DNA from: a virus | Strand: one strand, 5' to 3' | DNA length: 35,118 bases | IMG/VR virus record: IMGVR_UViG_3300032116_006658 | Location: 1 to 35,118 of that record | In this document: one piece after another, positions 3,798 to 22,622 of the stretch | Numbering within the stretch: position 1 is the stretch's first letter | Layout: every line of letters starts with the position of its first letter | Notes under the pieces: model-generated | Database searches by the model: none | The model's input: only the letters and a program-made list of their open reading frames with translations | Told to the model about the DNA's origin: nothing | Translations under genes and position numbers: made by a program

Positions 3798-3800
3798 GAC

Positions 3801-4046: not shown

Positions 4047-4049
4047 GTA

Positions 4050-4057: not shown

Positions 4058-4093
4058 AAGAAAACGACCACATAAAAAGAGTCGAAGAACAAC

Positions 4094-5716: not shown

Positions 5717-5718
5717 TC

Positions 5719-6183: not shown

Positions 6184-6188
6184 GTTAG

Positions 6189-9100
6189 ATGACAGAATTT
6201 TTATCAGGAATGAATTTATCAGGTAAAGTAAAAAAGACACCTCCTACAGAAGTGTCTCCGGATAGATACAAGTATATTAAACTTTCTGAAACAGAACCAG
6301 ATCTCGGTGTTCCAGAAGCAAATAACTATGTTCTTGCGTCTGATACAGAAGGAAATCGCTTTTGGTTAGAGACGAGTGGAGTTCAAGGAACAACTGGCCT
6401 TCAAGGTGAGCAAGGTACGCAAGGAGTTGAAGGATCTCAGGGTACACAGGGTACTCTTGGTATACAAGGCGAACAAGGTACACAGGGATCTCAAGGCACG
6501 CAAGGTCTACGGGGAGACCAAGGTCTTCAGGGTACTCTTGGTATACAAGGTGAGCAAGGTACACAAGGATCTCAGGGTGCACAGGGTACTTTTGGTATAC
6601 AAGGTACGGATGGCAACTTTGGCGGGGCATCGTTTGATTACACCTATAGCACTTCCATTATTCAATCTGACCCAGGCACCGGAAGATTAAAGTTCAATGA
6701 TGCAGACATAACGACTGCAATTAGAATGTTCATCGATGACACAGATGACAACGGTATTGATATTCAATCATTTTTAAGAACAATCGATGATTCTACTTCA
6801 ACGATTAAAGGACACTTTAGAGTATCTAACAGAACTGCGTCTCAACGATTCGCTCTCTATACAATTTCATCTATATCAGAAGAAGCAGGGTTTTTCTTAG
6901 TTAACTGTGGGTATGTATCTGGGTCAGTTAATAACTTTAATGATAACGAAGATATTATCATTACATTTGCTAGAACTGGAGATATTGGAGATATTGGACC
7001 ACAGGGCGTGCAAGGTGCGCAAGGTGTTCAGGGAACTCGGGGTCTTCAAGGCGAACAAGGTCTTCAAGGAACGCAGGGCACTCAAGGTTTCCAAGGTACT
7101 ACTGGGCCACAAGGCGTTCAAGGCACAACCGGAACTCAAGGAACGACTGGAACCCAAGGTACTATTGGAACACAAGGTCTTCAGGGAACACAAGGTACCC
7201 AGGGTACTACTGGTACACAAGGTACAACTGGGACGCAGGGAAATAATGGATCGCAAGGTCTACAAGGAACACAGGGTGAACAGGGAACCCAAGGCGAACA
7301 AGGTATTCAAGGTACTCAGGGAACCCAAGGCGAACAAGGTATTCAAGGTATTACCGGGACGCAGGGTTTTCAAGGAACATCTGGATTTCAGGGAATTCAG
7401 GGAACCGCGGCCATAGACGGAGCAGAAGGTTCTCAGGGTACGCAAGGTCTCCAGGGTACACAAGGAACTGTCGGATCTCAGGGTCTCCAAGGCGAACAGG
7501 GCACTACTGGAACACAGGGTTTTCAAGGCACGCAAGGTCTTCAAGGAGAACAGGGAACACAAGGACTCCAAGGCAATCAAGGTGAACAAGGACTTCAGGG
7601 AACTCAGGGTGAACAAGGACTCCAAGGCAATCAAGGTGAACAAGGACTTCAGGGAACTCAAGGTACCCAAGGTATCCAAGGCGAACAAGGTACTCAAGGT
7701 ACTCAAGGTCTTCAAGGCGAGCAGGGTACTCAAGGTCTTCAAGGCGAACAAGGTACTCAAGGTCTTCAAGGCGAGCAGGGAACTCAGGGAACACAAGGTC
7801 TTCAAGGTACTCAAGGTGAGCAGGGCACTCAAGGAACACAAGGTCTTCAGGGAACGCAGGGAACTCAAGGCACGCAAGGTACTCAAGGTCTTCAAGGCGA
7901 ACAAGGTATTCAAGGTCTCCAAGGCATCGAGCTCGTATTAAATTATATTGGATCATGGGTGCAGGCTAGCTATGTAAAAGATACTGTTGCTGTAAGCACG
8001 GTTGATGGTAACACTTATGTATCAAAGCAAGTCATCACGTCTGTTTATCAGGACCCTGCGGTTAATACTACTGAATGGGAACTATTTGTTCTACAAGGAA
8101 CTCAGGGTCTTCAAGGTGAGCAGGGAACTCAGGGTCTTCAAGGTGAGCAGGGAACTCAGGGTCTTCAAGGTGAGCAGGGAACTCAGGGTCTTCAGGGTGA
8201 GCAGGGAACTCAGGGTCTTCAGGGTGAGCAAGGTACACAAGGACTTCAGGGTGAGCAGGGAACTCAGGGTCTGCAGGGTGAGCAAGGTACACAAGGACTT
8301 CAGGGTGAGCAAGGTACACAAGGACTTCAGGGTGAGCAGGGAACTCAGGGTCTGCAGGGAGATCAAGGTCTTCAAGGTAATTTTGGTATACAAGGTATAC
8401 AAGGATCTACCGCAGGAGATGCTGCAACTCTAGACGGATTGGATAGTCTTCAATTCGTAAGATCCGATGTTAGCACCACGATGACCGGTGGTTTCTTAAC
8501 TCTTGCACAAGATCCATCTGGTAATCTACAAGCCGTCACAAAACAGTATGTAGATACACTAGTATCTGCGGCTATACATTATCACGACCCAGTTAGAGTA
8601 GAGTCACCAATCTCTCTTAATGCTATTTATGATAACGGAATATCAGGAGTTGGCGCTACATTAACGAATGGCGGAACTCAGCTAGGTCTTATTATAGATG
8701 GAATTACGCTAAGTACTGACAACCGTGTTCTTTTATATCAACAAGCTAACACGGCTCATAACGGCGTGTATACAGTCACAGATACTGGTTCTGCAAATAC
8801 TGATTGGGTTCTTACTCGTTCAACCGATACAGATTCTTACAGCCCAAGCGATTCTGGAAGTATAGGTAGAGGCGACGCGTTTTACGTCCTAGAAGGTAAC
8901 ACCGGAGCCGGCGAACTCTATGTACTGACCACAGAAGGAGTCATTACATTTGGAAGCACTGGCATAAACTTCTCACAGATAAGCTCTTCACAGATTTACA
9001 AAGCAGGCGCTGGATTAGAACTCAATGGTGTTGAGTTTTCTATTAATCCAGATGCGAATATTATAGTAAGTGGAGTTACAATACAAAGTATAGGACCTGT

Positions 9101-11372
9101 AATAAACTCAAGCGGTACGTGGGTTGGAGATCCAACTAATTTACAGGGAGCTCAGGGTACAACCGGATCGCAAGGTCTTCAAGGATCTCAAGGTACGGCT
9201 GCTGTAGACGGATTAGACGGTGCTCAAGGTCTTCAGGGAACTCAAGGCACGACTGGATCACAAGGAACAACAGGAACTCAGGGAGTTCAAGGAACTACTG
9301 GATCTCAAGGTCTTCAGGGATCACAAGGAACTCAGGGTGAACAAGGTATTCAAGGAACTCAAGGTACTACTGGATCTCAAGGTACTACTGGATCTCAAGG
9401 CCTCCAAGGAACTCAGGGTACTACCGGAACTCAAGGTCTTCAGGGAACTCAAGGTACAACTGGAACTCAGGGTACTACCGGAACTCAAGGTATTCAGGGA
9501 ACGATTGGTACCCAAGGTACTACTGGAACACAAGGTATTCAAGGTACTACCGGAGTTCAAGGAACTACTGGATCTCAAGGTCTTCAGGGATCACAAGGAA
9601 CTCAGGGTGAACAAGGTATTCAAGGAACTCAAGGTACTACTGGATCTCAAGGTACTACTGGAACTCAGGGAACTACAGGATCTCAAGGTATTCAGGGAAC
9701 GCAAGGTACAACTGGATCTCAAGGTACGACTGGATCTCAAGGAACTCAAGGACTTCAGGGTGAGCAGGGAACACAAGGTACAACTGGTATTCAAGGTACT
9801 ACCGGTGCGCAAGGTACAACTGGATCTCAAGGTCTTCAGGGAACACAGGGAACTACAGGATCTCAAGGTCTTCAGGGAACACAGGGAACTACAGGAACAC
9901 AAGGTACGACTGGAACTCAGGGAACTACAGGAACTCAGGGAACTACAGGATCTCAAGGTCTTCAGGGAACACAGGGAACTCAGGGTCTTCAAGGTGAGCA
10001 GGGAACTCAGGGTCTTCAGGGTGAGCAGGGAACTCAGGGTCTTCAGGGAACACAGGGAACTCAGGGTCTTCAAGGTACACAAGGAACTCAGGGTCTTCAA
10101 GGTACACAAGGAACTCAGGGTCTTCAGGGTGAGCAGGGAACTCAGGGTCTTCAGGGTGAGCAGGGAACTCAGGGTCTTCAAGGTGAGCAGGGAACTCAGG
10201 GGGCAACTGGTACACAAGGTACAACTGGTACACAAGGTACAACTGGTACACAAGGAACAACCGGTACCCAAGGAACTACTGGATCGCAAGGTATTCAAGG
10301 AACTACCGGAACTCAAGGAACAATCGGTACACAAGGAACAACCGGTACCCAAGGAACTACTGGATCGCAAGGTATTCAAGGAATTACTGGAACTCAGGGT
10401 ACTACCGGTACACAAGGCACGACTGGAACTCAGGGAACTACAGGAACGCAAGGAACAACCGGTACCCAAGGAACAACAGGAACGCAAGGTGCTACTGGAT
10501 CGCAAGGTCTTCAAGGTACGACTGGATCGCAAGGTATTCAAGGAACTACCGGAACTCAAGGAACGTCTGGGACTGGTGCACAAGGTATTTCAGGTGGATC
10601 TACTAGTTGGATCTTAAGAACTACCAATTACACTGCGGTTTCTGGTGATAGAATACTCACGAACACGGCCGGCGGAACATTTACAATTACACTCCCAGCT
10701 ACACCCGCCACAGGAGCGTTCGTTGTAATCGCTGACGCTAACGATTGGTCAGCTATAAATCTAACGGTCGCAAGAAACGGAAGCACTATCGAAGGCATAG
10801 CTGATGATATTACAATGGACGTTAAAGGCTTTTCTGTAGAGTTTGCTTATGACGGTACAACTTGGGAAATATTTACTGCGATTGGTCTTCAAGGAGCGCA
10901 AGGTACAACCGGCTCACAGGGTATACAAGGTCCTACCGGCCCATCTACTACGATCAACGCGGTTGACGTATCAGATGACGATACAGTTTTCCCGGTGTTT
11001 GTAACAGCCGCTGGTTCAAATCAACTCGCAGAAGTTTCTACGACTAGACTATATTTCAATCCTTCGACCGGAGATCTGTCGGCAACTAACTTTAACTCAC
11101 TTTCAGACGTAACATTTAAAGAAAACTTTAAGTCTATCGATAACAGCTTTGATATTCTAGAACAAATAAATACGTATAGTTTCGATTGGAAAGATAACAA
11201 GACAAAGAGCTACGGTGTGATTGCGCAAGAACTAGAAAAGATCATGCCAGAGCTTGTAAAAACAAACGGAAGTGGTTTAAAGACAGTTACATATACTCCA
11301 CTTATTGCAATCTTGATTGAAGCAGTTAAGAAACTAAAAGCTGACGTAGAAAACATAAAGAGAGATAACTAA
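6189..11372 (+). CDS. giant collagen-like tail fibre with S74 intramolecular chaperone
   Basis: This 1727-residue fibre is built from Gly-X-Y blocks and globular inserts. The collagen-like blocks are at about residues 64-145, 264-580, 637-741, 987-1469 and a short one near 1566-1586. X and Y are nearly always Thr, Gln, Leu, Glu, Ser or Ile (GTQ, GLQ, GEQ, GTT), and Pro is almost absent. Inserts lie at about 146-263, 581-636 (Trp-rich, carbohydrate-binding-module-like: GSWVQASYVKDTVAV), 742-986 (with the fibre motif AVTKQYVD) and 1470-1565. The C-terminus from about 1639 (SDVTFKENFKSI ... YGVIAQELEKIMPEL) is a peptidase-S74/endosialidase-type chaperone, which in known fibres drives trimerisation and then cuts itself off. 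It is probably a long adhesion fibre. Many Thr residues could be O-glycosylated (inference). Confidence 0.85.
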   Translation: MTEFLSGMNLSGKVKKTPPTEVSPDRYKYIKLSETEPDLGVPEANNYVLASDTEGNRFWLETSGVQGTTGLQGEQGTQGVEGSQGTQGTLGIQGEQGTQGSQGTQGLRGDQGLQGTLGIQGEQGTQGSQGAQGTFGIQGTDGNFGGASFDYTYSTSIIQSDPGTGRLKFNDADITTAIRMFIDDTDDNGIDIQSFLRTIDDSTSTIKGHFRVSNRTASQRFALYTISSISEEAGFFLVNCGYVSGSVNNFNDNEDIIITFARTGDIGDIGPQGVQGAQGVQGTRGLQGEQGLQGTQGTQGFQGTTGPQGVQGTTGTQGTTGTQGTIGTQGLQGTQGTQGTTGTQGTTGTQGNNGSQGLQGTQGEQGTQGEQGIQGTQGTQGEQGIQGITGTQGFQGTSGFQGIQGTAAIDGAEGSQGTQGLQGTQGTVGSQGLQGEQGTTGTQGFQGTQGLQGEQGTQGLQGNQGEQGLQGTQGEQGLQGNQGEQGLQGTQGTQGIQGEQGTQGTQGLQGEQGTQGLQGEQGTQGLQGEQGTQGTQGLQGTQGEQGTQGTQGLQGTQGTQGTQGTQGLQGEQGIQGLQGIELVLNYIGSWVQASYVKDTVAVSTVDGNTYVSKQVITSVYQDPAVNTTEWELFVLQGTQGLQGEQGTQGLQGEQGTQGLQGEQGTQGLQGEQGTQGLQGEQGTQGLQGEQGTQGLQGEQGTQGLQGEQGTQGLQGEQGTQGLQGDQGLQGNFGIQGIQGSTAGDAATLDGLDSLQFVRSDVSTTMTGGFLTLAQDPSGNLQAVTKQYVDTLVSAAIHYHDPVRVESPISLNAIYDNGISGVGATLTNGGTQLGLIIDGITLSTDNRVLLYQQANTAHNGVYTVTDTGSANTDWVLTRSTDTDSYSPSDSGSIGRGDAFYVLEGNTGAGELYVLTTEGVITFGSTGINFSQISSSQIYKAGAGLELNGVEFSINPDANIIVSGVTIQSIGPVINSSGTWVGDPTNLQGAQGTTGSQGLQGSQGTAAVDGLDGAQGLQGTQGTTGSQGTTGTQGVQGTTGSQGLQGSQGTQGEQGIQGTQGTTGSQGTTGSQGLQGTQGTTGTQGLQGTQGTTGTQGTTGTQGIQGTIGTQGTTGTQGIQGTTGVQGTTGSQGLQGSQGTQGEQGIQGTQGTTGSQGTTGTQGTTGSQGIQGTQGTTGSQGTTGSQGTQGLQGEQGTQGTTGIQGTTGAQGTTGSQGLQGTQGTTGSQGLQGTQGTTGTQGTTGTQGTTGTQGTTGSQGLQGTQGTQGLQGEQGTQGLQGEQGTQGLQGTQGTQGLQGTQGTQGLQGTQGTQGLQGEQGTQGLQGEQGTQGLQGEQGTQGATGTQGTTGTQGTTGTQGTTGTQGTTGSQGIQGTTGTQGTIGTQGTTGTQGTTGSQGIQGITGTQGTTGTQGTTGTQGTTGTQGTTGTQGTTGTQGATGSQGLQGTTGSQGIQGTTGTQGTSGTGAQGISGGSTSWILRTTNYTAVSGDRILTNTAGGTFTITLPATPATGAFVVIADANDWSAINLTVARNGSTIEGIADDITMDVKGFSVEFAYDGTTWEIFTAIGLQGAQGTTGSQGIQGPTGPSTTINAVDVSDDDTVFPVFVTAAGSNQLAEVSTTRLYFNPSTGDLSATNFNSLSDVTFKENFKSIDNSFDILEQINTYSFDWKDNKTKSYGVIAQELEKIMPELVKTNGSGLKTVTYTPLIAILIEAVKKLKADVENIKRDN
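8106..8348 (+). repeat. nine tandem 27-bp units in the collagen gene
   Basis: Nine consecutive near-identical 27-bp units each encode GLQGEQGTQ, followed by a variant (GLQGDQ). Units differ mainly at third codon positions. Gain or loss of a unit keeps the frame. Confidence 0.85.
9282..9662 (+). repeat. 111-bp perfect direct repeat, 270-bp offset
   Basis: Bases 9282-9392 are identical to 9552-9662 by direct comparison. The 270-bp offset is 90 codons or 30 Gly-X-Y triplets, so recombination between copies removes or adds exact collagen triplets. Confidence 0.85.
10245..10383 (+). repeat. 58-bp perfect direct repeat, 81-bp offset
   Basis: Bases 10245-10302 are identical to 10326-10383. The 81-bp offset equals nine Gly-X-Y triplets, again length-changing in frame. 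Confidence 0.8.
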
Positions 11373-11758
11373 TGCCAATATCACTAAAAAATGCTATTTC
11401 TCCTAACGTTGGTGTTGTTAAATCCTGGGTAAAAATAACAAGTAACTACACGGCGCTGAATGGTGATAAACTCATTGCTGATACGTCGGCCGGGTCCTTT
11501 ACGGTGACTATGCCATTTTCACCTTCTCCTGGGCATGCCGTGCAGATTACCGACGGTGGAAGTTGGCTAATAAATAACTTGCTAGTTAACTTTAACGGCG
11601 CGACTATCGAAGGCATAAATGATACACTGTCTGTTAACATACCACAAACAACCGTAGAGTTTGTTTATGACGGCACTACATGGCAATTTATTTCAAATAT
11701 TGGTGCGAGAGGCTCTAGCGATGAAGCTGCAGCTTTCGCTATAGCATTAGGATTCTAA
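11372..11758 (+). CDS. small fibre-domain protein, paralogue of a collagen-fibre insert
   Basis: This 128-residue protein is a stand-alone copy of the domain just before the S74 chaperone in the preceding fibre. Shared elements in order are SNYTALNGDKL / TNYTAVSGDRI, GSFTVTMP / GTFTITLP, GATIEGI / GSTIEGI, and VEFVYDGTTWQF / VEFAYDGTTWEI. Its ATG overlaps the fibre stop (TAATG), so translation is coupled. This domain type occurs in fibre distal regions; the protein may bind the collagen fibre tip or give an alternative tip. It carries no chaperone of its own. The paralogy is seen directly; the role is inferred. Confidence 0.7.
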   Translation: MPISLKNAISPNVGVVKSWVKITSNYTALNGDKLIADTSAGSFTVTMPFSPSPGHAVQITDGGSWLINNLLVNFNGATIEGINDTLSVNIPQTTVEFVYDGTTWQFISNIGARGSSDEAAAFAIALGF

Positions 11759-11768
11759 AGGAAAAATT

Positions 11769-14678
11769 ATGGGTAAGAAGATTATAAGAGATTACGTTTT
11801 TTCTCCTGGCGGTGCTAACGTTGGCACAATAAAAATACCTGGAAGATATACTTTAGATCAGCTTCTGCTAATTACTAACGTTACAGATAATATTATCCTG
11901 TACACATTTGGTAACTCTACATACGGTGGTACTACAGCAACGTTTACTGCCGCAAACGACGCAACTAACTTTCCTACTATCACACAGCGAGAAGATGGGT
12001 TCACAACGATAACATTGGGAGTAAGCACTACTGGTCAGAGTGCTAGTGATTCTCTTCAAATTTTTGTTTACGGTAACGAAAACGCTGCCTCTACTATAAG
12101 ACCTTGGAGTTTTGGTACTGATGCTATCGAAAGAATGCGCGTATCAAATCCCGAATCACTCATCGATGCTGACTTTGAATATGGTCTACAGCCGACAAAA
12201 TGGGCAGGTTATGGAACTGTTCGCGGCTATCCATCCGCTTATGAATTACCGGGTGTTGACTTAGTTGTAACTGCTATTACTACAGATGGTGCTTCAACAA
12301 ATAGTTTAATTACAGTCACTACGTCTGTCGCGCACGGTATCGCTGCGGGACAAGCGATTAATATTTCAGCTCTAAACTCTGGAATTGCAGGATTTAGTAG
12401 AGCTGACGGAACATTTATTGTTAACACAGTGGGTGTACCTAACACTAGCACGCTAACATATTTTGCAAGGGGTGTAGTTGGAACCAATGGACAATCATTA
12501 CTAACAGATGCTACCACACTAAAGCGTGGAGCAATCTATTCAGGCGCTTCGATACCAGTAGCATCAGCAACGAGCAATGGTGCTAACCCGTCAGTAATTA
12601 CTTTAAACTTTACCAACCCACACGGATTAATTCCTGGTACTGCTATCCACTCTATCGTTGCATCTGGTACTCAGGCTGCGCTTGCTTCTGGGCCGTTTGT
12701 TGTTACGAGTGTTCCTAGTTTAACATCATTAACATATACTGCACGAGGTGGCGCTGTTGTTGTGTCTCCAGCGACCGTTACTTTATATGCGTTTACAAAT
12801 TCTACGATTGTTCACAGACCACAGGACGGCGGAGTTATTCTTTCAACTAAAACTCCAACATATGGCGCAACAGTTGCTCGTCAGAGTAAAAGATATTTTC
12901 GTTATCAATCAGGTAAAGGTTTTCTTTGGTCGACTGGAACGTTATTTAGACCAAACTATGATATTCGGAGTATAACTGCTTCCGGAACCACCGTCGGTTC
13001 TACGATTACTGTTACAACTGATGACATTGATCATGGTTTACAGATCGGCGCAGTTATAGAAATAGCAGGATCGACAACTTCTGGGTATAATGGCACATAT
13101 ACAGTAGCATCTATCGTAAGCGACTATCAGTTTACAGTATTAGCGACCAGTGTACTCGGTGCAACTACTGCAGTGTTAAATATCACGCCAAAGGTGTATG
13201 TAATAACATGGGATGGCGCAGCTGTAAGAGCTGGGTTGTTTGACGAACAAAATGGATTATTCTGGGAATATGATGGTAGTATTTTATCTGTAGTAAAAAG
13301 AAATTCTACTGCACAATTAAGTGGAACTCTATCTGTTACGCAAAACTCAAATGCGGTGACTGGCGTAAATACAAGATTTACTCAGCAATTAAAAGCAGGC
13401 GATAGAATCGTTATCCGCGGTATGACTCACCATGTTATACAAGTAGTGAGTGATACTTCTATATTTGTGTCTCCTGATTATAGAGGTATCAATGCTTCTG
13501 GTGTAAAGGGTAACTTAATTCAAGAAACAAGAATTAGGCAGTCGCAGTTCAACATTGATACAATTGACGGAACCGGGCCAAGCGGGTTTAATATTAACCT
13601 AAGTAAGATGCACATGGTCGGTCTACAGTATTCGTGGTACGGCGCTGGCTTTGTTGATTTTATGGTTCGTGGTAGTGATGGTAACTGGGTTTTCGTGCAT
13701 CGTATCAAAAATAACAACGTGAATGATGAAGCTTATATGAGATCTGGTAACCTCCCGGTTCGCTATTCTATCGAAAACGATACTCCAGTAACATCTCTAA
13801 CTTCTACGATCGACAGCTCAGTTACAACAATTCCAGTTGCAGCACTGGAACACTTTCCAACAGCAGGAACATTGTACATAGATAACGAAATTATCAGTTA
13901 CACAGGTAAGTCAGCGGCAAGTGGAGCTGGTAACTTTACCGGTGCGACTCGTGCAGCAACACTCACTCAGTGGCAAGCAGGTACTTCGACTGGATTTACT
14001 GCTGCGGCTGCTGCAAGCCATACGGCCGGCACTGGTGTAATTCTAATAAGTAATACGTGTTCTCCAACTCTAAGTCACTGGGGTTCTGCGTTAATCATGG
14101 ACGGTGGATTTACTAAGGACCGTGGATACATCTTTAACTATCAGAGAGTCGGTTTGAGTCTTACAACCGCGAACCAAACAGCGTTCCTCATTCGTCTTGC
14201 TCCATCCGTTTCAAACAGTCAGGTTGGTGGTCTTGGAGTAAGAGATCTATTGAATCGTTCTCAGCTTCTTCTACAAGCAGTCGGTGTATCTGTTTCAGGT
14301 GGTACAAACCCTGGTGCTTGTATTGTTGAAGGCGTGTTGAATCCTAAGAATTTCTCTTCAGCGACGTGGCTTCCATTAAACGTAGAATCTGCGGGTGGCC
14401 AGCCAAGTCTCGCGCAGGTTGCGACTTCTGTGACTTATAGTGCGGGCACCGTTGCGGTACCAGGTGAACAGGTGTTTGCGTTTGCTGCTCCTTCTACCGC
14501 ATCTGGCGCAGTGAACGATAGACTAGAACTTACGGAACTGAAGGAATTGACTGGTGCTCCACTAGGAGGAGATTTCCAATATCCAGACGGCTCTGACATT
14601 CTTGCGATTAATATTCGTTTAACCGCTGGTACTGGCACGGGTCACGTTCTTCTTCGTTGGTCAGAAGCTCAAGCATAA
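11769..14678 (+). CDS. large virion structural/tail-fibre protein with beta repeats
   Basis: This 969-residue beta-rich protein has a start preceded by AAAGGAAAAA. The N-terminal 125 residues (YVFSPGGANVGTIKIPGRYTLDQLL ...) resemble conserved large virion proteins of marine T4-like phages. Next come three related repeats, from about bases 12261, 12555 and 12963, each with the pattern 'I-T-V-T-T-x-x-x-HGL-x-x-G-x-x-I ... G-T-x-x-V-x-x-V-x-x-x-x-x-x-T-x'. The middle contains FDEQNGLFWEYDG and GDRIVIRGMTHHVIQV. Near residue 690, PVAALEHFPTAGTLYIDNEI is another fibre-type motif. The C-terminal ~150 residues are globular. No catalytic motif is visible. It is probably a second long fibre or a baseplate-attached structural protein. 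Confidence 0.65.
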   Translation: MGKKIIRDYVFSPGGANVGTIKIPGRYTLDQLLLITNVTDNIILYTFGNSTYGGTTATFTAANDATNFPTITQREDGFTTITLGVSTTGQSASDSLQIFVYGNENAASTIRPWSFGTDAIERMRVSNPESLIDADFEYGLQPTKWAGYGTVRGYPSAYELPGVDLVVTAITTDGASTNSLITVTTSVAHGIAAGQAINISALNSGIAGFSRADGTFIVNTVGVPNTSTLTYFARGVVGTNGQSLLTDATTLKRGAIYSGASIPVASATSNGANPSVITLNFTNPHGLIPGTAIHSIVASGTQAALASGPFVVTSVPSLTSLTYTARGGAVVVSPATVTLYAFTNSTIVHRPQDGGVILSTKTPTYGATVARQSKRYFRYQSGKGFLWSTGTLFRPNYDIRSITASGTTVGSTITVTTDDIDHGLQIGAVIEIAGSTTSGYNGTYTVASIVSDYQFTVLATSVLGATTAVLNITPKVYVITWDGAAVRAGLFDEQNGLFWEYDGSILSVVKRNSTAQLSGTLSVTQNSNAVTGVNTRFTQQLKAGDRIVIRGMTHHVIQVVSDTSIFVSPDYRGINASGVKGNLIQETRIRQSQFNIDTIDGTGPSGFNINLSKMHMVGLQYSWYGAGFVDFMVRGSDGNWVFVHRIKNNNVNDEAYMRSGNLPVRYSIENDTPVTSLTSTIDSSVTTIPVAALEHFPTAGTLYIDNEIISYTGKSAASGAGNFTGATRAATLTQWQAGTSTGFTAAAAASHTAGTGVILISNTCSPTLSHWGSALIMDGGFTKDRGYIFNYQRVGLSLTTANQTAFLIRLAPSVSNSQVGGLGVRDLLNRSQLLLQAVGVSVSGGTNPGACIVEGVLNPKNFSSATWLPLNVESAGGQPSLAQVATSVTYSAGTVAVPGEQVFAFAAPSTASGAVNDRLELTELKELTGAPLGGDFQYPDGSDILAINIRLTAGTGTGHVLLRWSEAQA

Positions 14679-14689
14679 GGGATTAAAAT

Positions 14690-15055
14690 ATGGTAGTCTT
14701 AGCAACAGATTTGATTTCAGCTTATTTGCCGCCGGGTCCGGCGGTAGAAGTAGAGACTGGAAACAACGCTAATGGTTTTTACGTGCGTCTTGCTGGCGGA
14801 ACTCAGATGTGCTGGCATACCTTTTCAATAACTCCGTCCGCGTCAAACACACCGACACTAGGGGCATGGACTTTTCCGATAGCATTTGCTGCAGCACCAT
14901 ATGTTCATGTTTCTGTTAACTCTACTGTTCCAGGAACCACAGTTACTGGTTGGTCTTCATCTGGTGCTACTACAACGGCCGTAAACGTGTATATTTCTCG
15001 CGCGAACACTACTGCTACGAGCGTGATTGTATTTGCTATCGGTAGTTGGATTTAA
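14690..15055 (+). CDS. fibre-tip/receptor-binding-like small protein
   Basis: This 121-residue protein has the core MCWHTFSITPSASNT, GAWTFPIAFAAAPYVHVSVN and a closing VIVFAIGSWI. The pattern 'tFPiaFaaaPyV-x-V' followed by Thr/Ser-rich strands and a final 'iGxW' is typical of C-terminal knob domains of phage fibres (gp53-like C-terminal type), where it forms the receptor-binding tip. Here the domain is encoded as a separate polypeptide after two long fibres, which suggests a detachable adhesin. It is the last gene of the fibre block. The family assignment is from memory of the motif and should be tested by profile search. Confidence 0.6.
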   Translation: MVVLATDLISAYLPPGPAVEVETGNNANGFYVRLAGGTQMCWHTFSITPSASNTPTLGAWTFPIAFAAAPYVHVSVNSTVPGTTVTGWSSSGATTTAVNVYISRANTTATSVIVFAIGSWI

Positions 15056-15071
15056 TAGTACCGATTTCATT

Positions 15072-15079
15072 GATAAATA
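15072..15079 (+). promoter_or_regulatory. late promoter, one base off consensus
   Basis: GATAAATA lies in the 74-base gap between the fibre block and the carbohydrate cassette, 50 bases before the ATG at 15130. It probably gives the cassette late expression. Confidence 0.5.
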
Positions 15080-15103
15080 AATGTAGTTGACAGAACTTAC
15101 ATT
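15080..15103 (+). promoter_or_regulatory. leader hairpin
   Basis: aatgtagtt and aacttacatt pair over 9 bp with one bulged T and a GACAG loop, just downstream of the promoter. There is no T-run after it, so a 5' leader structure is more likely than a terminator. Confidence 0.35.
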
Positions 15104-15129
15104 CATATTATGAGGAATTTGATTACATC

Positions 15130-16194: not shown

Positions 16195-16195
16195 T

Positions 16196-17797
16196 ATGAC
16201 GGAAGAAATAAAACAGTTGATCACGATGTTCGCTCTTAATCCTAGTGACCCAGAAGTTAGTTTTATGATCGGTTCGTACTATGAGGATTTAGGTCAGTAC
16301 TCATCGGCAGGGTCTTATTACTTACGCTCGGCAGAAAGATTCGATGATAGAAATAAATCTTATGAGAGTCTAATAAGATTAGCAACATGCATGCAATCTT
16401 TGGGAAGACGGAAATATTCAACAAAGGGCCTTCTAAACTTTGCGATATCTCATATGCCAACGCGTCCAGAAGCATATTTAATTCTAAGCAAGTTCATTGA
16501 GAGCAGCGAAACGAATGACGAGAGGTGGTTTACTGCCTATTCACTCGTGTCTACCGCGCTAAGCATTCCAGACTTAGATAGTTTAAAATCGTTGAGAAGA
16601 AAAACCACATATGATGGAAAGTATTCTCTCTTACTTCAGAAAGCTCATGCTGGTTTTCATAGCGGGTTCATAGAGGAATCTAGAGAGATACTTCTTTCTA
16701 TTATAAACAGCAGTGATGCCCCTAGACATCATCAGAAAGCTGCTATGAAAAATCTAATGATGATCAAAAAAGAAAATCATAGGTCTCAATACTATCATAA
16801 CGAAACTCCGTTAAAAGATGTTTACCAATCTAGTCTAGCAAAGTACGCATTAGCAAATGGCGGATCGATCCATCCTATTGTTGTACCTCACTCTGTATCA
16901 AAAGGAATGGCGACAACAAACGCGTCTGTATTTGTTGACAGTCAAGAAAGAGTCTTTGTAAATCTCAGAGAAACTAACTATACTCTTTATTATAGTAATA
17001 AGTTTCCAGATAAAGATGGGCCTTTAAAATATCTTTATCCTGATAGTGATATTAACATCAGGTCCGAAAACGTTGTATGTAGACTTGACGATCGTCTTAA
17101 TGTTATATCTGCGGACAGAATTGATATGAAACTTAATGAGGATCCTAACTGGTTCTACATTGGGTTGGAAGATGGAAGACTCATAGAATGGGAAGGTAAA
17201 AAGTATCTCTGCGGAGTAAGAAGGGATCATATACTCGAAGGTAAGGGTAGGATGGATCTTTCACAGATTGAGATAACCAAGAACGGCGTGGTTGAGGTAG
17301 AACGGTTTTCAATTCCAGCGCCGGGAAACGACGACACCTACTGTGAAAAGAACTGGATGCCTATTCTAGACAAGCCGTTCCAATGGGTGAAGTGGACCAA
17401 CCCAACTCAGATAGTTTCATTCGATACTAAAACTCTAAAGACTAACACCGTACATCTTGAGGAGTCTAAAAAGTATCGGTTCCCTCGTGATCTAAGAGGT
17501 GGTTCGCATATCATACCTTGGAACGAAGACTACTACATTGGCATTACTCACGAATGCATGTATAATAACAACGATAGCGGAAGAAGATACTTTCAGAGAA
17601 TTATAGTTTGGGACAGAGACTGGAATATAGTATGTTCCACTCGTGACTTTACAATGATGAGTGGATCTATTGAGTTTGTTTCAGGTATTGCTTATCATAA
17701 GAACGATGTGCTTATATCGTATGGGTACGAGGATAACACATCATATATACTAAGAATACCAAAAAATGTATTTGACGATTTTGTTTTGAGAGGTTGA
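16196..17797 (+). CDS. TPR-like domain fused to GH130-like beta-propeller
   Basis: The ATG at 16196 is chosen because it follows the previous stop by one base and has GAAGG upstream; an in-frame ATG at 16181 would overlap. Residues 1 to about 200 are helical repeats of TPR type (DPEVSFMIGSYYEDLGQYSSAGSYYLRSAERFDD). From about 215 the protein repeats the previous gene: ALANGGSIHPIVVP, FVNLRETNYTLYYS, IGLEDGRLIEWEGKKYLCGVRRD, CEKNWMPILD, RGGSHIIPWNEDYYIGITHE, IEFVSGIAYHKNDVLISYGYEDN. The TPR part also matches the N-terminus of the next gene. TPR-plus-catalytic layouts, as in O-GlcNAc transferase, use the repeats to hold the protein substrate; a similar job here is inference. Confidence 0.62.
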   Translation: MTEEIKQLITMFALNPSDPEVSFMIGSYYEDLGQYSSAGSYYLRSAERFDDRNKSYESLIRLATCMQSLGRRKYSTKGLLNFAISHMPTRPEAYLILSKFIESSETNDERWFTAYSLVSTALSIPDLDSLKSLRRKTTYDGKYSLLLQKAHAGFHSGFIEESREILLSIINSSDAPRHHQKAAMKNLMMIKKENHRSQYYHNETPLKDVYQSSLAKYALANGGSIHPIVVPHSVSKGMATTNASVFVDSQERVFVNLRETNYTLYYSNKFPDKDGPLKYLYPDSDINIRSENVVCRLDDRLNVISADRIDMKLNEDPNWFYIGLEDGRLIEWEGKKYLCGVRRDHILEGKGRMDLSQIEITKNGVVEVERFSIPAPGNDDTYCEKNWMPILDKPFQWVKWTNPTQIVSFDTKTLKTNTVHLEESKKYRFPRDLRGGSHIIPWNEDYYIGITHECMYNNNDSGRRYFQRIIVWDRDWNIVCSTRDFTMMSGSIEFVSGIAYHKNDVLISYGYEDNTSYILRIPKNVFDDFVLRG

Positions 17798-17798
17798 T

Positions 17799-18818
17799 AT
17801 GCTTGTAGAAAAGATTAAATCTTATGTAAGTGATCCAGAAAACGCGCAGTTCAACTACGATCTTGGAAAGGAGTATGAAGTACTTAAACAGTACTCTGCC
17901 GCCTGCGGATACTTTTTAAGAGCTGCGGATAGAACTGACGACAACGAGTTGGTCTATAATTCTTTAGTGTCAGCCGCAAAGTCTCTAATAGAGCACGGTG
18001 ACAGCTTCGCAATCGTAGATAAGATTTTAAAGCATGCTATGTCAATAGATACGTCAAGAATAGACGCGTTTTATCTTATGCTGCTAACTTATAAATATAT
18101 TGGAGAAGATCAAGCATTTGAGGAAATGCACCCAGTCTTTCTTCGACTAAAAGAAGAAACCACTAAGAGCGAGATATATGATATGATAAATTTGAACGAT
18201 ATAATGAAGAAGTACATTCCTTCGATTGGTACTATTAGATACTCCGAAGACCAACCACAAAAAGATTTCAAACACATGATAGAGAAAGAGTTTGCAGCGG
18301 CTGCTACGACTCCTAGTGACATTCATGAACACTTGCCGGTTCTATACGAACTCGCCAAAGAATGCAATCATATAACAGAGATGGGTGTAAGGTTTGGAGT
18401 TAGTACTAGGGCATTCTTGAGAGCTAACGCAAAACTAATTTCTTATGACATCGTTACAGATCAAAAAGTAGTTGAACTCATGAATAATGCTAGTTCCGCT
18501 GGAAAAGACACAAAGTTCATTGAAGCGGATGTTCTTAATGTCGAGATTGAGGAGACAGATCTTTTGTTTATAGACACATGGCACGAATATGAACAACTAA
18601 AGAAAGAACTATCTCTTCATGCTAACAAAGTAAGAAAGTACATCGCATTTCATGATACGAACACATATGGTCTAAAAAATGAAGGTGGAGACAACAAACA
18701 ACTTACACAAGGGCTCCTTCCTGCGATTATAGAGTTTCTTATTGAAAATCAAAATTGGAGATTTAAGATGTTTCTTACAAACAACAATGGTCTCACAGTG
18801 CTAGAAAGAATTTCGTAA
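17799..18818 (+). CDS. TPR-like domain fused to SAM methyltransferase
   Basis: This 339-residue protein begins one base after the previous stop. Residues 1-100 (DPENAQFNYDLGKEYEVLKQYSAACGYFLRAADRTDD) share the helical-repeat module of the preceding gene. From about 175 a class I methyltransferase follows: ITEMGVRFGVSTRAFL (motif I), LISYDIVTD (acidic strand), KFIEADVLNV, LLFIDTWHEYEQLKKEL and YIAFHDTNTYG. The 'FIDTWHEYEQ ... HDT' pattern is the Methyltransf_24/CmcI type, again suggesting O-methylation of a sugar or small hydroxyl compound. The shared N-terminus suggests both enzymes dock on the same partner. The stop overlaps the next start (TAATG). Confidence 0.75.
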   Translation: MLVEKIKSYVSDPENAQFNYDLGKEYEVLKQYSAACGYFLRAADRTDDNELVYNSLVSAAKSLIEHGDSFAIVDKILKHAMSIDTSRIDAFYLMLLTYKYIGEDQAFEEMHPVFLRLKEETTKSEIYDMINLNDIMKKYIPSIGTIRYSEDQPQKDFKHMIEKEFAAAATTPSDIHEHLPVLYELAKECNHITEMGVRFGVSTRAFLRANAKLISYDIVTDQKVVELMNNASSAGKDTKFIEADVLNVEIEETDLLFIDTWHEYEQLKKELSLHANKVRKYIAFHDTNTYGLKNEGGDNKQLTQGLLPAIIEFLIENQNWRFKMFLTNNNGLTVLERIS

Positions 18819-19534
18819 TGAATAGTCTAAATGACAACATATCATTTGATGGTATAGATTCTATAGAAACTGTAGCAACGCTATATCACGAATTCTTTAT
18901 AAGAAATGATTACGATTGGTGGTATAAAGTTCAACCAAACGACATCGTAGTGGACATAGGTGCATGTAACGGAATGTTCACATGTCATGCTCTGGACAAC
19001 GGCGCCAAAAAGGTGTATTCTATCGAGGGAAATTCTAAACTCATAAAAACAGTAATACACAATGCGTCACCACATATCATAAATAAAAAAGAATCTCCAT
19101 TGGTTCCTATTAACTGCGTTATAGGGAATGACCCAATGTATACTAGAAATGTTTTTGGCGAAGGATATGATAAGGCCGTTCCTATTCGTTCGTTTAAAGA
19201 TATCATAAAGGAATATGATATCACGCATATAGACTATCTTAAGATAGATGCCGAAGGAGCCGAATATGATATCTTGTCAGAAGAAAATCTTGAATTCATA
19301 AAAAATAATGTTAAACACATTGCGGTCGAAGTGCATCTTGATTGCTTTGAAGATGCGCCAGTTTTATTCAAAAAATTTAGAGACAACTTCTTATCAAAAT
19401 TTGATGCAAGTAAGATAAAATATCTTCAGGAAGATTCACAACAGAAAATGTATGACGATGCATATTTGAATTCAAAGTGGCCTCTCGGTTGGGGAAGCTG
19501 TTGGATGATCTACATCTGCAACAAGTCATTATAA
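18818..19534 (+). CDS. FkbM-family SAM methyltransferase
   Basis: This 238-residue protein has the FkbM layout: IVVDIGACNGMFTCHAL (motif I, about residues 43-59), VYSIEGNSKL (acidic strand end, Glu), and IDYLKIDAEGAEYDIL (about 140-155), the characteristic 'KIDxEGxE' signature. FkbM enzymes are O-methyltransferases, frequent in polysaccharide and natural-product clusters. The N-terminal ~40 residues are hydrophilic, and there is no signal peptide. It is coupled to the TPR-methyltransferase by a one-base overlap. A second FkbM enzyme lies at 21143. The likely job is methyl capping of a sugar; the acceptor is unknown. Confidence 0.82.
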   Translation: MNSLNDNISFDGIDSIETVATLYHEFFIRNDYDWWYKVQPNDIVVDIGACNGMFTCHALDNGAKKVYSIEGNSKLIKTVIHNASPHIINKKESPLVPINCVIGNDPMYTRNVFGEGYDKAVPIRSFKDIIKEYDITHIDYLKIDAEGAEYDILSEENLEFIKNNVKHIAVEVHLDCFEDAPVLFKKFRDNFLSKFDASKIKYLQEDSQQKMYDDAYLNSKWPLGWGSCWMIYICNKSL

Positions 19535-19556
19535 TAATTTGAGAGGTACAAATAAT

Positions 19557-21140
19557 ATGATAGTCGATTTCTTTCCTTTCTTTGCTCCATACGGAGAAGA
19601 AACACTTAAGCTGAGATATGAAGTACTTAAGGATCATGTAGATTATTTTGTTATATCAGAGTCAAATAAAACTCACGCTGGTCATAAAGTTGAAAGACAG
19701 TTTCCTGAGATCGCAGGCAGACTTGAGATGGATCCAAATAAGATCATCTATATAGCACACGATATACCGGACGACGACAAGTTGGAGATCCTTCCTATTG
19801 ATATTCAAAACACGTATGGAAATCGTGATAAGATTGAATCGCAAAGAGCAAGAGCTCGTGAGCGCCTTCAGAAAGACGCGCTCCTAAAAGTCCTCGACAC
19901 GTTTGATGATGATACTGTCTTTATTCACGGCGATGCTGATGAAATCATTCGGCCGGATGGAATTCCGTATCTATCACGTGTCTGCCGAGAAAACCAAGAG
20001 ATAATCATTAAGGTTCCACTCGTTTATCTCGAAGGAAGAGCAGATCTTCGTCTTTATCACAGAGATAGTAACACACCGGTTCAATGGTCCGGCGCAATGT
20101 TTCTTGCTACGAAAGCTCAACTTAAAAGGGCTACACCAGCGCAGATACGTTCAAATGTAAATAACCCGTTTCCAATTCATTATATTACGGAAAACGGTGC
20201 TGCTATTCAGGATCTTGGATGGCACTTCTCTTGGATGGGTGGGCCTGAAAAGCGAGCCCTGAAGTCTCAAGTATGGGCCCATTATAACGACTCATTCGAG
20301 TGGTTAGGAGGAAATGAAACAGACAGCATTAAAGAGATAAAGTCATACCGTGACGAGACATACGTGACATTCTTAACAGAGAACGAAATGAAAGAAGGAT
20401 CTACTCCGCCTTCTGGAAATAAAAATCACGTCTTAAAGAAGTACTCTATTAGTGGGCTACCAAAAGAAATTCTTGAGAGCGAGTACTTAAAGAACTACTT
20501 TCTGCCAGATGTCAAAGAAGATAGTTTAGATGTATTTGAAAGGGCTGTTATAAATCCTTCTTCTCTAATAAGCCCGTATAAAAAGAGAGTATGGATCGTA
20601 GACGATTTCTATCATAACCCAGATGAAGTAAGACAGTATGCTCTAACTCGTGAATTCGATAAGGGTGGCTTCGGAAAAGGATATATGGGAAATAGAACTT
20701 TTAAACAGTTTCTATTCCCAGGCCTGAAGGAAGAATTTGAAAAGATCATGGGAATGAAGATTACAAAATGGGAACAACATGGTATGAATGGCAGGTTCCA
20801 GACATGTTATGCAGGAGATGCTCTTGTTTATCACTGCGACGATCAGAAATATGCTGGTATGTTATTCCTAACACCCGACGCGCCATTCGAGACTGGTACT
20901 TCAATGTACGCGCATAAGGCAACACGTATTCGTCACAATTCTCATCCAGAGATCATGAGCACCTTCTCTGGGCACACTACTCTCGATAAAACTCCATATG
21001 AACCGGTCGACGTAGTTGGAAATGTCTATAACAGACTCGTCATATTTGACGCAGGTATGATTCACGCAGCATCCGGATACTTCGGATATAACAACGAGAA
21101 TTCTCGCTTGTGGCAAATGTTCTTTTTTGACGCGGAGTAA
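19557..21140 (+). CDS. GT17-like glycosyltransferase fused to 2OG-Fe(II)-oxygenase-like domain
   Basis: The start is the ATG at 19557, with GAGAGG at 19541-19546. An upstream in-frame TTG at 19539 is less likely. The protein has 527 residues. Residues 1 to about 270 match glycosyltransferase family 17 (MGAT3-like): FFPFFAPYGEETLKLRYEVL, FVISESNKTHAGH, and VFIHGDADEIIRP with the metal-binding D-x-D, then GWHFSWMGG. Residues from about 340 form a second domain: RVWIVDDFYHNPDEVRQYAL, YHCDDQKYAGMLFLTPDAP with an H-x-D pair at 426/428, and a distal His at 503 in DAGMIHAASGYFG, the 2OG-Fe(II) oxygenase triad pattern. Sugar transfer and hydroxylation in one chain is unusual. This is the only clear glycosyltransferase in the window. 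Confidence 0.75.
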   Translation: MIVDFFPFFAPYGEETLKLRYEVLKDHVDYFVISESNKTHAGHKVERQFPEIAGRLEMDPNKIIYIAHDIPDDDKLEILPIDIQNTYGNRDKIESQRARARERLQKDALLKVLDTFDDDTVFIHGDADEIIRPDGIPYLSRVCRENQEIIIKVPLVYLEGRADLRLYHRDSNTPVQWSGAMFLATKAQLKRATPAQIRSNVNNPFPIHYITENGAAIQDLGWHFSWMGGPEKRALKSQVWAHYNDSFEWLGGNETDSIKEIKSYRDETYVTFLTENEMKEGSTPPSGNKNHVLKKYSISGLPKEILESEYLKNYFLPDVKEDSLDVFERAVINPSSLISPYKKRVWIVDDFYHNPDEVRQYALTREFDKGGFGKGYMGNRTFKQFLFPGLKEEFEKIMGMKITKWEQHGMNGRFQTCYAGDALVYHCDDQKYAGMLFLTPDAPFETGTSMYAHKATRIRHNSHPEIMSTFSGHTTLDKTPYEPVDVVGNVYNRLVIFDAGMIHAASGYFGYNNENSRLWQMFFFDAE

Positions 21141-21142
21141 AG

Positions 21143-21874
21143 ATGAATTACGAAAACTTTGATTGGGGTCCAACAGATAAAGAATATGCAAACTTATTTA
21201 CTAAAGAAAATTTTATCGATAGAACATACGAACTATTATATAAGATAAAAGAAATCGATGTCGTTGTAGATATTGGTGCAAACGTTGGTTCTTTCATATA
21301 TTCTCTAAAGGATATTAAACCTAAACACGCATTTTGTTTAGAACCATCAAACATTGTATTCAAAACGCTGGAAAAAAATCTAGAAATATTTTCGTGTACA
21401 CTGATAAATAAAGGTATATCTGGAGTAGATACCGACTACAACATAATCAAACCGGGGTCAGATTATATCTATCATCACGCCGGCAGTATGTTTTCAACTA
21501 TTCGGTTCGATACGTTAATAAAAGATTATAACATAGAGACGATAGATTTCTTAAAATTTGATTGCGAAGGCGGGGAAGCTTTTATCTTCACTAAAGAAAA
21601 TTCTTCTATGATCAAAAAAATAGTTAAGAACATAGCTGGTGAATATCACATAGTCGGAGTTCCAAATTCTATAGAGAACTTTATAGAATTTAGAGATAAC
21701 TACCTGTTAGATTTAAGAGGAACAGAACATCTGCGTGTATATGAAAGAGATGGAAAAGACGTAACAGAACAAATTTTCGATAACAACTTTTTGCGTGCCT
21801 ATGAAGAGTGGTGGAGAATTAATAACCCATATAAGGGTCAGTTTATGGTATATGCAAATTTGAAAGGAATGTAG
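21143..21874 (+). CDS. FkbM-family SAM methyltransferase (second copy)
   Basis: This 243-residue protein has VVVDIGANVGSFIYSL (motif I, about residues 34-49), AFCLEPSN (acidic end of strand 2) and IDFLKFDCEGGEAFIF (about 135-150), the FkbM signature. It begins 2 bases after the preceding stop with AAAG upstream. It is distant in sequence from the FkbM gene at 18818, so the two probably methylate different positions or sugars rather than being a recent duplication. The C-terminal segment (YEEWWRINNPYKGQFMVYANL) is unique to this copy. Position between the glycosyltransferase and the nucleotidyltransferase supports a glycan substrate. Confidence 0.82.
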   Translation: MNYENFDWGPTDKEYANLFTKENFIDRTYELLYKIKEIDVVVDIGANVGSFIYSLKDIKPKHAFCLEPSNIVFKTLEKNLEIFSCTLINKGISGVDTDYNIIKPGSDYIYHHAGSMFSTIRFDTLIKDYNIETIDFLKFDCEGGEAFIFTKENSSMIKKIVKNIAGEYHIVGVPNSIENFIEFRDNYLLDLRGTEHLRVYERDGKDVTEQIFDNNFLRAYEEWWRINNPYKGQFMVYANLKGM

Positions 21875-21875
21875 A

Positions 21876-22622
21876 ATGAAGATAGTACTTGTAACTGGTG
21901 GTTTCGATCCCCTTCATAGCGGTCATATTGCATACTTTAATGAAGCAAAAGAACTCGGAGATATTCTAATAGTTGGAGTAAATAGTGACGAATGGCTGAC
22001 TCGTAAAAAGGGTCAGCCATTCATGAGTCTATCAGAAAGAGTTGCGATCGTTGAGAGCCTTCATATGGTCGATAGTGTCATGATATTTGACGATAGTGAC
22101 GGCGGGGCGTCCGAAGCGATTAAGCTGTGTCTAGGAAAGTATCCACACGATGAAATCATTTTTGCGAACGGTGGTGATAGAACCGATAGCAATATTCCGG
22201 AAATGAGTATCGTAGACAGCCGACTATCGTTTGTGTTTGGAGTCGGTGGAACTCATAAGATGAATTCTAGCAGTAAGATCCTTACTGAGTGGAAGACACC
22301 TAAGACGGAAAGAAAGTGGGGATACTATCGAGTCCTACACTCGGACGGTCCTTCTACAAAAGTAAAAGAACTCATAGTCGAGCCAGGAAAGTCTCTCAGT
22401 CTTCAGAGACATAGTTTTAGAAACGAACTATGGTACGTTACAAATGGTACCGGTGCTATCAAACTAAACGGAGTGTTGTCGCCTTTAAAGAAAGGCGACT
22501 TTGTAAACATATATGTTTCTGACTGGCACCAACTCATTAACGATTCTTCTGAAGAACTAAAGATTGTTGAGATCCAGTATGGACAGAACTGCTACGAAGA
22601 AGATATCGAGCGCATCGAGTAA
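21876..22622 (+). CDS. HldE-domain-II-like nucleotidyltransferase fused to phosphomannose-isomerase-type cupin
   Basis: This 248-residue protein has two domains. Residues 1-140 are a cytidylyltransferase-like fold: VTGGFDPLHSGHIAYFNEAKEL carries the H-x-G-H motif (HSGH), then LIVGVNSDEWLTRKKG and ERVAIVESLHMVD, close to the C-terminal domain of E. coli HldE, and MNSSSKIL near 130 matches the nucleotide-binding S-S-x-K region. HldE domain II makes ADP-D-glycero-D-manno-heptose from heptose-1-P and ATP. Residues 148-248 are a cupin matching the phosphomannose isomerase type II half of ManC: WGYYRVL, PGKSLSLQRHSFRNELWYV, GTGAI, HQLIN, IVEIQYG. Fusion of these two is unusual. Its kinase partner could be the gene at the left edge. 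The next 119 bases hold only the gp13 leader. Confidence 0.8.
   Translation: MKIVLVTGGFDPLHSGHIAYFNEAKELGDILIVGVNSDEWLTRKKGQPFMSLSERVAIVESLHMVDSVMIFDDSDGGASEAIKLCLGKYPHDEIIFANGGDRTDSNIPEMSIVDSRLSFVFGVGGTHKMNSSSKILTEWKTPKTERKWGYYRVLHSDGPSTKVKELIVEPGKSLSLQRHSFRNELWYVTNGTGAIKLNGVLSPLKKGDFVNIYVSDWHQLINDSSEELKIVEIQYGQNCYEEDIERIE

Follow-up and report, generated by a model that had tools for sequence, protein, structure and literature searches.

The stretch of DNA examined here is the viral record IMGVR_UViG_3300032116_006658 from a freshwater bacteriophage; the window is the whole record of 35,118 bases. It encodes a long collagen-like tail fibre, ORF10, and behind it a cassette of seven genes, ORF14 to ORF20, that begins with a beta-propeller of the fold known from GH130 and GT108 enzymes. 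Across viral loci, propellers of the ORF14 family accompany collagens whose Gly-X-Y triplets are poor in proline and lysine (Pro/Lys-poor). They are present in 24 of 104 such loci vs 0 of 186 other collagen loci (Fisher 3e-12), and the link is reciprocal. We consider it somewhat probable, at roughly 55%, that the target modified by the cassette is the Pro-free, collagen-like tail fibre or fibres of the phage itself. We favour a propeller whose target is the collagen, directly or at the end of a pathway, because this is the simplest account of the composition rule, of the gene position and of the range of the family. A first-pass annotation of this DNA had proposed that the fibre is glycosylated by the adjacent cassette. 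What holds of that proposal is the reciprocal link of the propeller with Pro-free, Thr/Gln-rich collagen; the collagen-linked enzyme is the propeller and not the GT17-like glycosyltransferase or the heptose genes.

Propellers and Pro/Lys-poor collagens

6189–11372, + strand: ORF10, collagen-like tail fibre and proposed substrate (Pfam, PHROGs tail fibre families, triplet counts)
15130–16194, + strand: ORF14, propeller of GH130/GT108 fold and proposed sugar-transferring enzyme (fold, conserved residues, co-occurrence)

ORF10 is a protein of 1727 amino acids in which Pfam finds PF01391 (E 2.9e-151) in 14 stretches and a Peptidase_S74 intramolecular chaperone (E 1.3e-15) at the C-terminus. Its 333 Gly-X-Y triplets are spread over 7 runs, the longest with 152 triplets, whereas shuffling the protein 200 times gave no run above 8. 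Gln occupies Y in 254 triplets, Thr stands in X or Y in 166 (213 Thr residues), Pro occurs in 4 and Lys in none. The earlier description of a 1727-residue collagen-like fibre with almost no Pro is thus borne out. The fibre is also Thr-rich as described, although the "hundreds" of Thr-bearing triplets slightly overstate a count of 166.

Collagen loci on viral contigs were sampled with three codon patterns, GTQ, GDK and GPQ, without use of the enzyme. As collagen we counted at least 10 triplets in runs of at least 8 within one open frame, runs with more than 30% Gly in X/Y being dropped. Loci without such collagen were excluded from the denominators (9 of 119 GTQ, 35 of 120 GDK and 14 of 119 GPQ), and none of the excluded loci (GTQ, GDK and newly fetched GPQ) has a propeller. 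For GPQ, 119 of 120 stretches were examined, and ten loci that are also GDK loci were counted once in the pool. The propeller is found in 23 of 110 GTQ, 0 of 85 GDK and 1 of 105 GPQ collagen loci, and the collagen of this single GPQ locus is Pro-poor. When the pooled 290 loci are arranged by their Pro+Lys triplet fraction, the propeller occurs in 24 of 104 below 0.1, in 0 of 21 from 0.1 to 0.3 and in 0 of 165 above. The loci are stored chunks averaging about 9 kb; therefore 23% is probably a lower bound on the linkage.

Scans anchored on ORF18, ORF14 and gp13, with the best 80 kept for each, give the link from the side of the enzymes. A frequent order in the gene maps is collagen ORF, propeller, other genes and the gene of a 2-oxoglutarate (2OG) dioxygenase, and 14 of 76 loci, many of them near-identical, hold collagen, propeller, an MT2-type methyltransferase, 2OG, nucleotidyltransferase (NT)-cupin and gp13 in one piece. 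With the GTQ-selected loci left out and after dereplication by shared 4-mers, a collagen ORF ends at most 1.5 kb upstream of 15 of 74 propellers and starts at most 1.5 kb downstream of 0 of 90. The corresponding upstream count for MT2 is 5/16, so that MT2 is as closely collagen-linked as the propeller; it is 3/24 for FkbM, 2/59 for GT17, 0/46 for 2OG, 0/14 for NT, 1/23 for gp13 and 0/26 for gp15. Methyltransferases in general co-occur with propeller loci, the MT2 type closely, but this does not support the methylated sugar that the first-pass annotation had proposed for the fibre. GT17, which the first-pass annotation had named as partner of the fibre, was rejected in that role: it occurs in 0 of 110 T/Q, 0 of 85 GDK and 0 of 105 GPQ collagen loci, and its upstream collagen count is far from that of the propellers. 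The co-occurrence check suggested along with that annotation is thus positive for the propeller, which follows Pro/Lys-poor collagen, and negative for GT17.

In the enzyme- or gp13-anchored loci, 38 of 42 propellers (40 loci, not each shown to be T4-like) have a Pro/Lys-poor collagen as their nearest one, vs 1 of 11 propeller-less T4-like cases, whose Pro/Lys values are rounded or averaged. These cases comprise records G051, G074, G076, W13 and W14 and the gp13-anchored loci L203, L232, L233, L234, L236 and L239; L214, with 9 triplets, was dropped. Of 50 hand-chosen propeller-bearing records (at least 30 kb, two of them isolates, near-relatives such as L009/L010 and L025/L145 included), 38 contain PF01391, 36 of these above the Pfam cut-off. 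Among 49 T4-like control records, likewise hand-chosen and only partly matched by taxon, 7 have collagen, 7 a propeller and 2 both. The controls consist of 31 terminase-pattern records of at least 23.9 kb, which are not every such record (L553 and L591 were omitted as already in the propeller set), three gp13-anchored records and 15 isolates, three of which (P-SSM2, Sf-FS3 and RN05-S) had been picked up by the ORF18 search. Over the whole chosen records, collagen is present in 40 of 57 with propeller vs 5 of 42 without (Fisher 4e-9), and in records of at least 100 kb in 15 of 15 vs 3 of 24 (Fisher 3e-8).

The 13 Synechococcus/Prochlorococcus control isolates are all propeller-less, and the two with collagen (ACG-2014f and P-SSM2) have a Pro-containing one. 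The Synechococcus phage isolate DSL-LC02 carries a minimal island of propeller, FkbM protein and dioxygenase only. An adjoining collagen gene with 129 triplets lies on the opposite strand and is followed by two further fibre genes that contain collagen. At its other end the island is flanked by a collagen-free fibre gene; no nucleotide-sugar gene is annotated within 37 kb around the island. In S-SCSM2R, also a Synechococcus phage, which has a propeller and a fused dioxygenase, a collagen ORF is found about 8 kb off. Only part of the propeller loci also hold a heptose-type nucleotidyltransferase. Given this distribution and the DSL-LC02 island, heptose as the defining sugar, as the fibre had first been annotated, lacks support from co-occurrence beyond that part of the loci, albeit it is not rejected.

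The cassette and its proteins

ORF14 to ORF20 form an operon with spacings of -14 to +4 bases, gp13 follows after 119 bases, and three structural ORFs (ORF11-13) separate the operon from the fibre. It contains two GH130-fold propellers, three methyltransferases, a fusion of GT17 with a 2OG dioxygenase and a nucleotidyltransferase-cupin. Further genes for sugar metabolism lie at the start of the window. Next to ORF14, the relevant features are:

16181–17797, + strand: ORF15, TPR-like N-terminal part and second propeller of the ORF14 family (weak TPR_8; aligned with ORF14)
17799–18818, + strand: ORF16, class I methyltransferase-like (PF13578, 23.8 bits, just below the cut-off of 26.3)
18818–19534, + strand: ORF17, FkbM-type methyltransferase (PF05050, 49.5 bits)
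19539–21140, + strand: ORF18, GT17-like N-terminal part and, from ~20568, prolyl-hydroxylase-type 2OG-Fe(II) dioxygenase (Pfam, AlphaFold, Foldseek, VIA)
21143–21874, + strand: ORF19, FkbM-type methyltransferase (PF05050; TIGR01444 above cut-off)
21876–22622, + strand: ORF20, HldE-C-like nucleotidyltransferase and mannose-6-phosphate-isomerase-type cupin, proposed sugar activation (Pfam, PHROG 7878, NCBIfam)
3–518, + strand: ORF1, C-terminal part of a PfkB kinase resembling heptose-7-phosphate kinase, possible donor supply (NCBIfam, Pfam)
525–1163, + strand: ORF2, methyltransferase-like (PF13578, 25.4 bits, cut-off 26.3)
1536–2561, + strand: ORF4, dTDP-glucose 4,6-dehydratase-like sugar-nucleotide enzyme (TIGR01181, 257.5 bits, cut-off 365.1)
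2546–3346, + strand: ORF5, ADP-heptose 6-epimerase-like (TIGR02197, 229.4 bits, cut-off 274.6)

No useful match to a solved structure came out of sequence and profile searches with ORF14 and ORF18, so that fold comparison was needed. The model of ORF14 (pLDDT 88.2) is a beta-propeller that is closest to GH130 enzymes by VIA, with Z 24.3 to 5ay9 and 23.7 to Teth514_1788 (range 21-24), and reaches about Z 18 to Leishmania GT108 (MPT) enzymes and to GH43. The C-terminal part of ORF15 is assigned to this fold by alignment only. Because ORF14 scores 19.8 bits against PF04041, below the cut-off of 26, we treat it as a fold-level relative and do not file it as a GH130 member; the two GH130-type propellers reported earlier stand in this restricted sense. 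ORF14 thus has the propeller fold in common with GH130 mannoside phosphorylases and GT108 mannosyltransferases, and differs from them in its match under the Pfam cut-off and its largely phage-restricted subfamily. Over 52 aligned propellers 40 columns are invariant, including R155, R156 and the ED-x-R motif E138-D139-x-R141, whose D139 may be the catalytic Asp.

A motif scan of 84,980 prokaryote genomes found the propeller at 10 loci, and at least 599 viral stretches carry it in a scan with other patterns of another collection. Four of the 10 prokaryote loci have T4-like gp13-15 and one sits between T/Q collagen ORFs; therefore about half resemble phage contigs. As far as can be told from a motif-based scan, which misses diverged relatives, the family seems to be largely restricted to phages. 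L602, L604, L605 and L606 are filed as bacterial genome or metagenome-assembled genome but carry the propeller together with T4-like neck genes, and are probably phage contigs binned with bacteria. In-frame fusions were seen between propeller and 2OG (1 ORF), glycosyltransferase and propeller (2 ORFs) and glycosyltransferase and 2OG (58 ORFs, many near-identical); the first is a single ORF of 543 residues in L125 (338-1966). In the Actinomycetia phage DSL-LC01 (L743, 5802-8332), a methyltransferase and a TauD/TfdA dioxygenase stand together with a distant propeller (23% to the ORF15 part), and this compact set may have converged on the module or be ancestral to it.

The N-terminal part of ORF18 passes the cut-off of the GT17 family PF04724 (30.6 bits vs 26), which confirms the GT17-like glycosyltransferase noted near the fibre. 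The C-terminal third, which the first-pass annotation did not mention, is a 2OG-Fe(II) dioxygenase (DUF6445 by Pfam, and by fold). The AlphaFold model has a pLDDT of 93.2. In the VIA list, which is filled by the C-terminal domain and barely covers the N-terminal part, the nearest folds are the protein hydroxylases OGFOD1 (Z 14.2), PHD2 (13.4) and P. putida P4H (13.3); in Foldseek, the neighbours of this domain also include small-molecule oxygenases such as HygX. H432, D434, H509 and R523 are conserved in 42 of 42 aligned domains and correspond to the HxD...H and distal Arg of 2OG dioxygenases. In one chain, ORF18 thus has the LH3/L230-type order of a glycosyltransferase followed by a 2OG domain (Pfam, structure). 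Full-length human LH3 holds ranks 1-4 in its Foldseek list (E from 5.5e-8, TM-score about 0.2-0.25) and COLGALT1 rank 7. However, LH3/L230-type enzymes use Lys as substrate, and 0 of 333 ORF10 triplets hold it; therefore ORF18 is at most a protein that works like LH3 or L230, not a member of their group. PHROG 1644, "minor coat protein", spans the 2OG part of ORF18, and the same label is found on several cyanophage records; it looks wrong, as the modelled fold does not suggest such a function. An excerpt of PMC3037559 discusses the 2OG oxygenases of cyanophages in connection with nitrogen metabolism and DNA repair, a context that differs from the one to which the modelled fold points here.

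The N-terminal part of ORF15 matches TPR_8 at 15.2 bits (cut-off 25.7), and that of ORF16 is similar to it by eye. The N-terminal part of ORF20 scores 80.9 bits against rfaE_dom_II (cut-off 181.5), and ORF1 scores 68 bits against rfaE_dom_I (cut-off 345), which is a weak test as the gene is cut by the contig end. ORF1, ORF5 and ORF20 thus all stay under the NCBIfam equivalog cut-offs for membership of the ADP-heptose pathway. The heptose-activation genes that had been placed in the stretch 6189-22622 are recognizable in these matches, but ORF1 and ORF5 lie outside it; likewise, of the four methyltransferases counted there, ORF16, ORF17 and ORF19 are inside and ORF2 is not, with ORF16 and ORF2 just below the cut-off. 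None of ORF14-ORF20 has a likely membrane helix by hydropathy (Kyte-Doolittle 19-window maximum 1.58), and in a test of 12 proteins from the cassette and the sugar genes hydropathy picked out no candidate for a flippase, polymerase or lipid-linked transferase. By its appearance the cassette is a set of soluble enzymes for protein modification. A near-identical relative extends upstream of the stretch that matches the window (L742, bases 1-17500 of G001, the 111 kb record holding L010). There, with 10 of 18 ORFs tested, we found a sulfotransferase, a methyltransferase, a GT2-like protein just under the cut-off and RCC1-repeat proteins (RCC1 match in two). Judged from L742, the sugar set may be larger and involve sulfate.

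By its neck, terminase and sheath proteins, the record is recognizable as a fragment of a T4-like myovirus. Among the isolates within the 60 listed of 2498 matching records, its terminase (27034-28632) is nearest to that of the Sinorhizobium phage phiN3 (57.6% identity), and the cyanophage terminases, with ~48% identity, rank after it; therefore the host may not be a cyanobacterium. ORF30 (32794-34593) has an Asp-rich stretch and repeated acidic motifs by eye, and its best PHROGs are of unknown function.

Proposed modification of the fibre and competing explanations

Computation gives the gene content, the folds, the intact dioxygenase residues and the reciprocal link of propeller and Pro/Lys-poor collagen; substrate, reaction, sugar, step order and stabilizing role we infer as follows. 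ORF14-ORF20 would be an operon with which the phage modifies protein post-translationally, its own Pro-free fibre or fibres being the substrate, and it would act in the cytosol of the infected cell ahead of fibre trimerisation. The propellers of ORF14 and ORF15 would put a beta-linked, manno-configured sugar, either mannose or a mannose-like heptose, on Ser/Thr of the Gly-X-Y repeats, while the TPR-like parts of ORF15 and ORF16 could grip the protein substrate. The GT17-like domain of ORF18 might lengthen the glycan and its 2OG domain might hydroxylate a residue or a sugar. FkbM-type and related methyltransferases would cap the sugars, and ORF20 together with ORF1, ORF4 and ORF5 would provide the activated sugar. 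The glycan could then stabilize or shield a triple helix without proline.

Several observations weigh against such a modification of the fibre. Our samples are arbitrary first rows or hand-picked, and they are not phylogenetically independent. Collagen is missing from 17 of 57 propeller records, all of them shorter than 100 kb. At 13 of 15 hand-picked propeller loci, a Gly-X-Y run of at least 4 is likewise absent within 11-21 kb; these 15 were chosen because earlier maps showed no collagen, and two of the 13, L117 and L153, belong to records with collagen at another place. A cassette without any collagen-like fibre, which the first-pass annotation had named as the case that would speak for host-surface remodelling, is thus seen locally, but in 0 of 15 propeller records of at least 100 kb. 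A T4-like group (L209, L212, L602, L604-L606) retains propeller, NT-cupin and gp13 with collagen not nearby, and in a Rhodobacteraceae bin propellers and collagens are found on separate contigs. The distant propeller phage DSL-LC01 has Pro/Thr-rich collagens. Among propeller-linked collagens Ser or Thr is present in 0.15-0.99 of triplets, and some contain little Thr (0.07 of triplets in L129). Concerning ORF18, the alignment with LH3 covers two domains at a TM-score of 0.25 and an rmsd of about 21 A, and therefore points to a shared domain order only. With 4 Pro and 0 Lys in the ORF10 triplets, classical sites of collagen hydroxylation are nearly absent. A collagen-specific role of the 2OG gene finds no support within propeller loci, where its presence is independent of collagen (23 of 47 with collagen vs 12 of 27 without).

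The main rival explanation is that the cassette acts on the infected cell, altering its lipopolysaccharide or O-antigen, for instance as a block to superinfection; its place beside the fibre genes would then reflect that host-recognition modules travel together. Host O-chain change is the published reading of the glycosyltransferases in the host-recognition cluster of T4-like pelagimyophages (excerpt of PMC7029224). Gene sets for surface glycans typically hold genes of the heptose, dTDP-sugar, FkbM and GT17 types, many propellers lie within GT17-bearing clusters resembling host-surface gene sets, and the hand-picked loci without a nearby Gly-X-Y run fit as well. However, remodelling of the host surface predicts neither that the propeller tracks the composition of collagen nor that it is placed just downstream of collagen ORFs. 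A host-derived gene should moreover have close cellular relatives, whereas the motif-based genome scan returned 10 loci, and hydropathy gave no sign of the flippase, polymerase or lipid-linked transferase looked for in the 12 proteins. We regard this explanation as unlikely, though it deserves more weight than the other two.

It is improbable, in our view, that the cassette modifies another virion protein, such as ORF12, a baseplate or a fibre-tip protein, with collagen merely marking phages with long fibres. ORF11-13 do stand between fibre and cassette, and mycobacteriophages carry glycans on capsid and tail tube (Freeman 2023, quoted in an excerpt of PMC12619734), but what the propeller follows is the amino-acid composition of the very collagen repeats. 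Slightly less probable still is a linkage by descent only, in which one lineage carries Pro-poor collagen and propeller without functional relation. The dependence among our samples and the many loci from T4-like phages of water samples would agree with it. Nevertheless, on a propeller tree of 74 rows, GTQ-selected loci included, at least 14 changes on well supported branches are required to place the label "collagen within 5 kb", and the pair is therefore not one frozen inherited block. Where T4-like phages have no propeller, their collagen contains Pro or Lys in 10 of 11 cases. The same changes on the tree show that the pairing is often broken at a distance of 5 kb, which counts against a modification of the fibre too.

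Known systems and implications

We know of no GH130-type propeller in the collagen system of mimivirus and LH3, and of no BclA enzyme related to the ORF14-ORF20 cassette. The glycans of Bacillus BclA are O-linked and contain O-methyl sugars, and the BclA repeats are of the GPT type with Pro, unlike those of ORF10. The closest working model for the proposed modification is mimivirus, with its lysyl hydroxylase-glucosyltransferase L230 and R699, alongside human LH3/PLOD and COLGALT1. Like this phage, mimivirus encodes collagen-like proteins together with a dedicated hydroxylase and sugar transferase, and its L230 was initially annotated as a lipopolysaccharide enzyme (excerpt of PMC9546862). L230 and LH3 resemble ORF18 in holding glycosyltransferase and 2OG dioxygenase in one protein, but they act on the Lys of triplets, which the ORF10 triplets do not have. 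BclA resembles the proposed fibre as a collagen-like surface fibre carrying glycans (excerpt of PMC8968730). Mycobacteriophages provide a case of glycosylated virion proteins, although the targets described there are not collagen (Freeman 2023, quoted in an excerpt of PMC12619734). The E. coli prophage protein EPclA is, like ORF10, a collagen-like phage tail fibre, but it is Pro-rich in X and charged; recombinant EPclA was unglycosylated by PAS stain, and its authors, citing Bann 2000, discuss Thr glycosylation as an alternative route to collagen stabilization (excerpt of PMC3368898). Our literature search, which covered titles and the beginnings of abstracts of the matches listed, found no paper on glycosylated phage collagen fibres.

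In conclusion, part of the glycosyltransferase clusters of the kind known from T4-like pelagimyophages, marked by the propeller, probably decorates the virion's own fibres. The results give a sequence rule, by which the propeller accompanies Pro/Lys-poor collagen, and name a largely phage-restricted enzyme family. Tentatively, and with less confidence than for the modification itself, we speculate that aquatic T4-like phages possess a second collagen build of Gly-X-Gln/Thr repeats with hardly any proline or lysine, stabilized by sugars that a phage-specific family of propeller transferases attaches to Ser/Thr with the help of an LH3-like fusion, so that sugar would replace proline. The results also raise a question of collagen physics, namely what stabilizes a triple helix of hundreds of triplets that has almost no proline. 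If the proposed modification is true, the enzymes would be possible tools for glycosylated collagens made in bacteria.

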